Virus record (IMG/VR): IMGVR_UViG_3300031696_000001
Coordinates: 1 to 62,169 of that record
Length of the DNA stretch: 62,169 nucleotides
Strand: one strand, 5' to 3'
Source of the DNA: a virus
In this document: piece after piece, positions 11,779 to 14,534 of the stretch
Position numbering within the stretch: the stretch's first letter is position 1
Layout of the letters: the number at the start of each line of letters is the position of its first letter
Notes under the pieces: generated by a model
Databases searched by the model: none
Seen by the model: the letters and a program-made list of their open reading frames with translations, nothing else
Told to the model about the DNA's origin: nothing
Position numbers and translations under genes: made by a program

Positions 11779-11798
11779 TTTGTGTGCTTTAAATTTTA

Positions 11799-11862
11799 GG
11801 AATCAACTGTTGACTCCTTGTACCACCAAAACCTCACTACTTTCGTAGCAAGGCAAATGGTG
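11799..11862 (-). ncRNA. intergenic structured RNA A (long GNRA hairpin plus short hairpin)
   Basis: In the leftward transcript, 11862-11824 folds as CACCA - UUU - 10-bp stem (GCCUUGCUAC) - GAAA loop - GUAGUGAGGU - UU - UGGUG. It is followed by an 8-bp hairpin with a triloop (11817-11799, GGAGUCAA/UUGAUUCC), and then an unstructured A/C-rich leader to the ATG at 11778. The layout equals that of element C (13645-13581), with different but compensating bases in the upper stem. It could be a processing site (RNase III-like) or a ribozyme of unknown class. The hammerhead occupies the equivalent place before the paralogous gene. Confidence 0.6.
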
Positions 11863-12452: not shown

Positions 12453-12782
12453 TTATCTTTTTATTTCCTCCATTAGTAATTCAACCTTTACCATCTTAGT
12501 AATTGATGATAATGTTTCTTTTAAGTCCTTGATAGTAACCTTATTTTGAAGTCCTATCTCAACACTATAAACCATACTCTCCTCCTTTAAGTAGTATCCA
12601 TCAGCATCCATTATTCCATTTGCATAAGCAAACTCATCCCATATATAGCTTGAATCATCAGTACAGATTATACTATCATTATAGTAACCTCCCGTTGATT
12701 TACCTACTTGATTAGCAATCTTTCTCATTAAGGATGATACCTCCTTAATCTGTATCTGTTGAATTTGTGTATCTAATTTCAT
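12453..12782 (-). CDS. hypothetical early protein, GGYYNDS paralogue 2 (109 aa)
   Basis: A 109-residue protein, a paralogue of 11431-11778 through MRKIANQVGKSTGGYYNDSII and the closing KMVKVELLMEEI. The region between (SSYIWDEFAYANGIMDADGYY) is acidic and aromatic. Its mRNA should begin at a hammerhead cleavage site 32 bases upstream of the ATG, leaving a 5' hairpin followed by an unstructured CAAUUAACACCAACAAC leader. Function unknown. Confidence 0.7.
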   Translation of the reverse strand: MKLDTQIQQIQIKEVSSLMRKIANQVGKSTGGYYNDSIICTDDSSYIWDEFAYANGIMDADGYYLKEESMVYSVEIGLQNKVTIKDLKETLSSITKMVKVELLMEEIKR

Positions 12783-12799
12783 GTTGTTGGTGTTAATTG

Positions 12800-12813
12800 G
12801 TATCTTATGATAC
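12800..12813 (-). ncRNA. 5' hairpin exposed after hammerhead cleavage
   Basis: Immediately after the predicted cleavage point, GUAUC - AUAA - GAUAC (12813-12800) can fold into a 5-bp hairpin at the new 5' end. The same GUAUC strand forms stem I of the uncut ribozyme, so the two folds exclude each other. Cleavage would release the strand and leave a capped, probably more stable mRNA 5' end. Confidence 0.65.
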
Positions 12814-12863
12814 TGACACTACTTGCGTAGTGTTTCGGCTAATAGAAGCCTCATCAGAGTATC
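12809..12863 (-). ncRNA. type I hammerhead self-cleaving ribozyme
   Basis: All core nucleotides are present in the leftward transcript. Stem I is GAUACU (12863-12858) with AGUAUC (12814-12809), 6 bp perfect. The core CUGAUGA is 12857-12851. Stem II is GGCU-UCUAUU-AGCC (12850-12837). GAAA follows, in which the last A pairs with U 12816. Stem III is CACUAC-GCAA-GUAGUG (12832-12817), 6 bp with a GNRA loop. The cleavage triplet is GUC, so the cut falls between 12815 and 12814. It lies in the space after the 231-residue gene (stop at 12866) and before the 109-residue gene, so self-cleavage would split the polycistronic mRNA. Confidence 0.92.
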
Positions 12864-12865
12864 TA

Positions 12866-13561
12866 TTATTTGTTATGATGGTGTATGTGAGTCTCTATCA
12901 AATCATCAGAGTATCTCTTGATTACCTCATTCCAATCTATAAGGTTTATATCATTTGCATTGAATTCATCCTCTCTAACTAATCTGAAGAATGTTTGTAA
13001 GATATCCTCTTTCCAATACTCAGTATTATCTAACACTAAACATAATCGGTAGGTTTGGATGTTTGTGTATCCGTTAACCTTTACACTATCCATAATTGAT
13101 TTACCAATTTCATCTCCATTCTCATCAATACAAGCATCATTCTGAGCATCTACCCAAGCATCTGATTGATATTTTTTAACATCAACTGCATCTCCATTCT
13201 CATCAAAATCTCCTAAGATATCCTCATCTCTGCAATCAGGACATATATCACAGAAATCATGTTCTTCTCTTGTCATGTCTTTATCACATACCTCACAAAT
13301 AGGTTCAAACTCCTCTCCAGCTATTCTCGGTAGGAAATGCTCATCCTCTGCATATATACCTTTGAAATCATGCAGTACATCCGTTAACCTATGCTCTAAG
13401 TTATTTACTACTGCTATTACCCATTCTGGGTTTAATTCTACTACTCTGCCTATTGCCGTCTTACTATCTACTCCAAAGTTTAACTGCCAATCTTGGCTAA
13501 GGAAAAAATTCATTGGCATAAGGAAATTTAATCTTGGTACTAACATCTCATCTCTTTTCAT
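12866..13561 (-). CDS. hypothetical protein with zinc-ribbon-like Cys cluster (231 aa)
   Basis: A 231-residue acidic protein. In the middle, CEVCDKDMTREEHDFCDICPDC holds two CxxC pairs plus His and should bind zinc. It ends in His-rich ETHIHHHNK. The ATG at 13561 is preferred over one nine codons upstream because it follows the same AAAACACACAAG-type leader seen before other early genes. The 3' end (12915-12903) repeats 14 bases of the hammerhead that begins just after its stop. Function unknown. Confidence 0.7.
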   Translation of the reverse strand: MKRDEMLVPRLNFLMPMNFFLSQDWQLNFGVDSKTAIGRVVELNPEWVIAVVNNLEHRLTDVLHDFKGIYAEDEHFLPRIAGEEFEPICEVCDKDMTREEHDFCDICPDCRDEDILGDFDENGDAVDVKKYQSDAWVDAQNDACIDENGDEIGKSIMDSVKVNGYTNIQTYRLCLVLDNTEYWKEDILQTFFRLVREDEFNANDINLIDWNEVIKRYSDDLIETHIHHHNK

Positions 13562-13580
13562 CTTGTGTGTTTTAATGGTA

Positions 13581-13645
13581 GGAATCAATTGCTGATTCCC
13601 TCTACCTCGAATAACTCACATATCTCTATGCAAGTCGTTCGGTAG
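13581..13645 (-). ncRNA. intergenic structured RNA C (long GNRA hairpin plus short hairpin)
   Basis: In the leftward transcript CUAC (13645-13642) and the following CGAACGACUUGCAUA pair across a GAGA loop with UAUGUGAGUUAUUCG, then AG bulge and GUAG (to 13602): about 19 bp with one C-A mismatch and several G-U pairs. A perfect 7-bp hairpin GGAAUCA-GCAAU-UGAUUCC (13599-13581) follows. The ATG is 20 bases further on, behind an A/C-rich leader. The fold and the CUUGC/GUGAG pieces match element A while the apical stem differs by compensating changes. Confidence 0.6.
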
Positions 13646-14491: not shown

Positions 14492-14534
14492 GTGTGCATG
14501 GGGCTGAGACTGGCAGTGTGCATGGGGCTGAGAC
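14492..14534. repeat. 19-bp direct repeat pair
   Basis: GTGTGCATGGGGCTGAGAC occurs at 14492-14510 and again at 14516-14534, identical, with starts 24 bases apart. GC content here is well above the surroundings. It may be a binding site array or part of an origin. Confidence 0.7.

Follow-up and report, generated by a model that had tools for sequence, protein, structure and literature searches.

Can a single small ribozyme, lying between two genes of a phage early operon, split the transcript that carries it, and is such an element peculiar to one virus or part of something wider? We asked this of a 62,169-nt stretch of DNA (the window), which is a whole IMG/VR virus record and encodes groEL, a BT4734-type primase and a Sak annealing protein. 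Its nearest named relative is MW202828, an unplaced podovirus whose primase is 65% identical; the Flavobacterium Elemovirus phages are more distant named relatives, similar in groEL and early-operon layout. The window virus is a virus of marine-type Flavobacteria. A sequence-only reading had placed an intergenic hammerhead in its leftward early region and proposed that it cuts early mRNA, and the analysis reported here supports that proposal.

A type I hammerhead between two early genes

The element occupies positions 12809-12863 of the minus strand, in sense orientation between co-oriented genes, and occurs once in the window. Read 5' to 3' from 12863 to 12809, its segments are GATACT, CTGATGA, GGCT(TCTATT)AGCC, GAAA, CACTAC(GCAA)GTAGTG, T, and finally C and AGTATC on either side of the cut. 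It is a type I hammerhead in which every core base is present (CUGAUGA, GAAA and GUC) and the stems, of 6, 4 and 6 bp, are all perfect, with an A15.1-U16.1 pair in addition; stem I is open. The type, the core, the three perfect stems and the place between two genes had been claimed in the sequence-only reading and can be read directly in the sequence, and the coordinates given there hold. The predicted cut falls between C12815 and A12814. Upstream, the stop codon TAA (12868-12866) ends 2 nt before stem I; downstream, the 109-residue gene begins with an ATG at 12782, 32 nt past the cut. The features of the region, all on the minus strand, are as follows.

12866-13588, upstream 240-aa gene, a TTG-started ORF whose true start is uncertain; stop codon at 12866-12868
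12840-12868, alternative, cleavage-incompetent pairing of UAAUAGA (12868-12862) with UCUAUUA (12846-12840), from fold prediction
12809-12863, type I hammerhead ribozyme, from the sequence and from a custom model (R1; 49.6 bits, E = 1.2e-10)
12858-12863, 5' strand of stem I, GATACT; its 5' flank is A12864, and 87% of 172 non-redundant phage hammerheads among the matches listed have an A here
12851-12857, core CUGAUGA, from the sequence
12837-12850, stem II, GGCU/AGCC with the 6-nt loop UCUAUU; the loop is 5 nt in most relatives
12833-12836, core GAAA, from the sequence; A12833 pairs with U12816
12817-12832, stem III, CACUAC/GUAGUG with a GCAA (GNRA) loop, from the sequence and phage comparison
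12815-12817, GUC cleavage triplet, from the sequence; predicted cut 12815/12814
12809-12814, 3' strand of stem I, AGTATC, with which the downstream product begins; the conserved A12808 comes next
12800-12813, leader hairpin GUAUC-AUAA-GAUAC of the downstream product, which competes with stem I and is identical in relatives at unrelated junctions
12783-12799, leader from the hairpin to the ATG, predicted to be unstructured
12453-12782, downstream 109-aa gene, with no Pfam or PHROG family

A script scan found no other type I hammerhead in the window. By chance, such a structure appeared in none of 400 simulated Markov windows when all stems were required to have at least 4 bp, and 0.04 times per window with stems of at least 3 bp; the RNA fold of the element has z = -3.4. 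The Rfam models, which the sequence-only reading had named as a check, a lack of hits counting as a refutation, matched nothing in the window at their gathering thresholds. The best match below threshold was to the RAGATH-1-hammerhead (RF03152), with 24.5 bits (cut-off 56.3), and Hammerhead_3 gave 12.6 bits (cut-off 48.5). In 21 further phage loci with clear hammerheads, Rfam at gathering was equally silent, so the test is insensitive and its failure here uninformative, and we rejected Rfam as an arbiter. The model R1, built from 43 phage hammerheads with the window sequence excluded, gave a single match over the whole window, the hammerhead itself (E-value and score as listed above). No further hammerhead rose above noise in the early region of the window, even with filters off. 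These results confirm that the hammerhead is real and of type I.

Compared with other phage hammerheads, it keeps A-7, G-6, C+6 and A+7, has U rather than A at +8, and has a loop II one base longer than the norm. The bases AAUA (12867-12864) are predicted to be able to pair with UAUU of loop II; we rejected this pseudoknot as a conserved tertiary contact, as relatives do not have it.

We looked for other sources of a 5' end near the hammerhead. A local promoter was rejected, there being no Bacteroidetes-type pattern nearby, and so was a sigma-70-like promoter, such sites being fewer than in shuffled sequence. There is no tRNA in the window with which the hammerhead could be associated, and INPHARED returned no match to either the DNA region or the 109-aa protein. 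A hammerhead likewise comes after the homologues of the 240-aa gene in three other phages (L443/L453, L454 and L460), with a different downstream gene in each of the three.

Three further observations concern the surrounding sequence. In a contig of the same species (L003), little of the upstream gene is left and the junction lies just before an intact hammerhead. Within the upstream gene of the window, positions 12903-12919 hold a 17-nt near-copy of the 5' strand of the hammerhead. We rejected it as a second, broken hammerhead, since it encodes RYSD residues that are conserved in homologues of the upstream protein; it may be a coincidence or a possible source of that 5' strand. Finally, a 19-nt direct repeat, GTGTGCATGGGGCTGAGAC, at 14492-14534 in the stretch that separates the leftward early genes from groEL, is a possible regulator site.

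Hammerheads in related phages and other viral contigs

We fetched 80 relatives of the window virus via the primase and scanned them with R1. This identified 25 hammerheads, one of them from the window's own species, with up to four per genome, and all 25 are in the sense orientation to the early operon. Covariation is seen in 14 of their 16 pairs, with 127 double-sided changes, though these counts are inflated by an alignment that was fitted to the model. Among relatives with at least 8 kb of upstream sequence, 13 of 29 have an R1 hammerhead and about half have none. Some relatives carry lesions in stem II or adjacent to the core, and one hammerhead (L351:5453) has a long insert in loop III. 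The cultured Elemovirus Flavobacterium phage elemoF 6-3D (NC_055853; L430:9960-10022) has a hammerhead-like element of 38.8 bits with an imperfect stem II, directly upstream of KNV11_gp67; this phage is a possible laboratory system.

Pattern scans of viral contigs yielded at least 407 distinct hammerheads, at least 323 of them of type I. Among the raw core-pattern matches listed, 324 of 359 complete the full fold, against 3 of 376 with shuffled flanks; separate counts of pairs from this set are weaker evidence than the shuffled-flank test, the sequences having been partly selected for pairing. A signature outside the core, consisting of a six-pair stem I, A-7, G-6, C+6 and A+7, is present in 84-87% of the 172 non-redundant hammerheads among the matches listed. 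Type I cuts among these matches lie a median of 26 nt before a same-strand start codon, and an ORF starts within 60 nt of the cut for 281 of the 308 type I elements listed, compared with 760 of 1,615 random sense positions and 88 of 311 antisense ones. The 263 downstream proteins of the listed hammerheads fall in 218 clusters (median 87 aa) and are mostly unrelated; phage hammerheads are thus not tied to one gene family. Few of these proteins have a Pfam family, ArdC-type antirestriction and superinfection immunity being among those found. In other words, the window hammerhead is no rarity: it is one of a large, poorly catalogued set of gene-separating phage hammerheads. Type III hammerheads (84 of the 407 listed) also occur in viral contigs, for example L019, L020, L028, L044 and L103, and they too lie directly 5' of small genes, often after a GC-rich stretch.

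The early operons contain a second intergenic RNA element, present in the window at 11788-11852 and 13570-13634 (minus strand) and about 35 times in relatives (L356, L378, L380, L392 and L426 among them). It consists of a hairpin, CCUCACUAUGAAAGUAGUGGGG, then UUUC/UUUG-GUGGUA and often a second hairpin; it lies upstream of small genes, in sense orientation only in the copies read, and has no Rfam match. Seven of its nine hairpin pairs covary, and in many copies the outer arm complements the leader sequence ahead of the ATG. In one contig (L433:914-1480) it lies directly against the 5' side of a hammerhead that has an enlarged stem III loop of about 50 nt.

The proposed cut and its alternatives

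From position, orientation and comparison between genomes, we consider it likely that the window hammerhead is a co-transcriptional cutter that splits the leftward early polycistronic RNA, and that it serves as general gene punctuation in mobile cassettes rather than as the regulator of a single gene. In hammerhead chemistry the 2'-OH of C17 attacks, so that the upstream RNA ends in a 2',3'-cyclic phosphate and the downstream RNA begins with a 5'-OH. In the cell, the early RNA would be cut as it is made. The upstream message would then end in the stem III hairpin with its 2',3'-cyclic phosphate, the hairpin guarding the 3' end, and the mRNA of the 109-aa gene would receive its own 32-nt leader, whose 5'-OH and terminal hairpin may guard that message. 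Two neighbouring small genes would in this way become separate mRNAs with separate stability and translation. Sense-oriented intergenic hammerheads of this kind would move among gene junctions as small cassettes.

Re-use of the cassette can be seen directly. The hammerhead of the window together with ATAAGATACC recurs in other phages with stems II and III changed, and the cassette precedes six unrelated downstream genes, with 32-33 nt from cut to ATG every time. Elsewhere, hairpins of other sequence copy stem I as well (GUUGC/GCAAC, AUUGC/GCAAU and GUUAC/GUAAC); 10 such hairpins were observed where 2.5 were expected, and none of 1,000 swaps reached 10. The leader hairpin as a universal part of phage hammerheads was rejected, with 10 of 279 non-redundant elements among the matches listed having one.

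The main caution comes from folding predictions, in which an alternative structure of the full leader would oppose cleavage. ViennaRNA, whose model leaves tertiary contacts and Mg outside, gives -21.5 kcal/mol for this inactive fold and -18.8 for the active one; the window's stem I probability is 0.82 before the leader hairpin is transcribed and 0.02 in the full leader. With the inactive fold as the predicted minimum, the ribozyme would have to act during transcription.

These predictions bear on a reading that we regard as unlikely though worth weighing: that the element is a kinetic switch, cleaving only before the downstream hairpin is made, so that late transcripts refold into an uncleavable form. 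On this reading the share of early RNA that is split would depend on how fast the polymerase moves, on pausing or on a bound factor. The drop in stem I probability on addition of the hairpin occurs in all seven cassette members (from about 0.9 to 0.08-0.6 in the others), and the hairpin copies stem I across lineages with different stem I sequences, more often than the swaps allow. However, irreversible product release explains the hairpin equally well: after the cut, AGUAUC can re-pair with GAUAC into a predicted 5'-terminal hairpin that leaves the remaining leader open. Most phage hammerheads have no such hairpin, and the energies leave out tertiary structure. Moreover, in the window it is an added AU-rich helix (UAAUAGA/UCUAUUA), not kept in relatives, that makes the inactive fold the predicted minimum.

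That the hammerhead is decayed or dispensable, a chance leftover of cassette movement with little effect on expression, seems to us improbable. The alternative fold favoured in the full leader would suit this explanation, as would the many relatives with no hammerhead and the lesions near stem II or the core in some others, including the elemoF copy. Against it, the core positions and stems of the window element are all perfect, and its clade covaries strongly and is strictly sense in orientation. It is very improbable that the element is chiefly a DNA-level joint for recombination or gene shuffling, with RNA cleavage secondary, for although near-identical cassettes link unrelated gene pairs and the L003 deletion ends just upstream of the hammerhead, the stems covary, which indicates that RNA pairing rather than DNA identity is conserved, the orientation is sense only, and the chromosomal counterpart is fixed at one locus.

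A chromosomal counterpart and its meaning

We searched genomes of bacteria and archaea for members of the ATACU/AGUAU subfamily and found 11 matches, all in Flavobacteriales/Bacteroidetes assemblies; the likeness of stem I between these chromosomal copies and the phage copies is built in by the query, as this first search fixed stem I. All 11 share one site: a TonB-dependent receptor gene precedes the hammerhead, and the gene after it encodes a small, Cys/His-rich lipoprotein of 93-124 aa with a CHECH-like motif. Each of these assemblies has one R1 match, at that site. Wider searches also picked up copies with other stem I sequences: of 52 genomes in the family 18 had an R1 match, and of a sample of 298 from the order 21 did. 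In the Flavobacteriales assemblies (L462-L472 and L473-L494) the neighbours were the same at 22 of 22 loci inspected, and 11 of 16 pairs covary among the chromosomal hammerheads. The element is chromosomal and apparently non-prophage. The sequence-only reading had thought intergenic use unusual in a Bacteroidota phage; that view did not survive, with up to four hammerheads in relatives and one at a fixed locus in Flavobacteriales chromosomes.

The intergenic phage hammerhead as a kind has already been described. Perreault et al. (2011; PMC3088659) reported intergenic hammerheads in phages and prophages, often several per region, and proposed that they split long transcripts into operon- or gene-length mRNAs. 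In haloviruses HHphage lies 13 nt before the helicase start, tandem phage hammerheads cleave in vitro, the one from Agrobacterium also in E. coli, and many bacterial copies are near integrase genes and were grouped with prophages (PMC3088659). The window and its relatives resemble that set in having sense hammerheads between co-oriented phage genes, with several copies per phage in relatives. By its description, the 2011 set appears to differ from the window clade, which is found in flavobacterial-type phages and has a stem I that is most often 6 bp long, with a closing G-C pair and A/A flanks, and from the window lineage, which has a conserved product hairpin and a fixed distance to the ATG. 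The fixed chromosomal site in Flavobacteriales likewise differs from the integrase-associated prophage copies. With Rfam families RF00163, RF00008 and RF03152 the window element shares the core, the three-way junction and the NUH triplet, although it does not reach their gathering scores. The HDV-like theta ribozymes of gut phages (PMC10879173) are likewise small self-cleaving phage ribozymes, of a different class that is tied to phage tRNAs.

The open-licence literature yielded no paper linking hammerheads to TonB receptors, and this population may have been described since in preprints or subscription journals; by title and abstract, none of the open-licence papers mentioning hammerheads and flavobacteria is about a hammerhead at this site. 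Within the open-licence papers covered, two things may be new: the chromosomal locus in the host, and the cassette that is re-used along with its product hairpin.

Current Rfam models miss the phage hammerhead population, and annotation therefore undercounts it. The role of natural bacterial and phage hammerheads has been open since 2011, and the window offers a compact test of it: one ribozyme between two small genes, in a cassette re-used at constant spacing. We suggest tentatively, as a possibility somewhat short of even, that flavobacterial phages and their hosts share a system of RNA punctuation, in which hammerheads of one architecture would split co-transcripts at gene borders, the phage cassettes being partly timed by the hairpin and the host element lying between the TonB receptor and the lipoprotein. 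In one bacterial family the chromosomal counterpart keeps to a single site, and what it does to the two genes beside it could be measured there.
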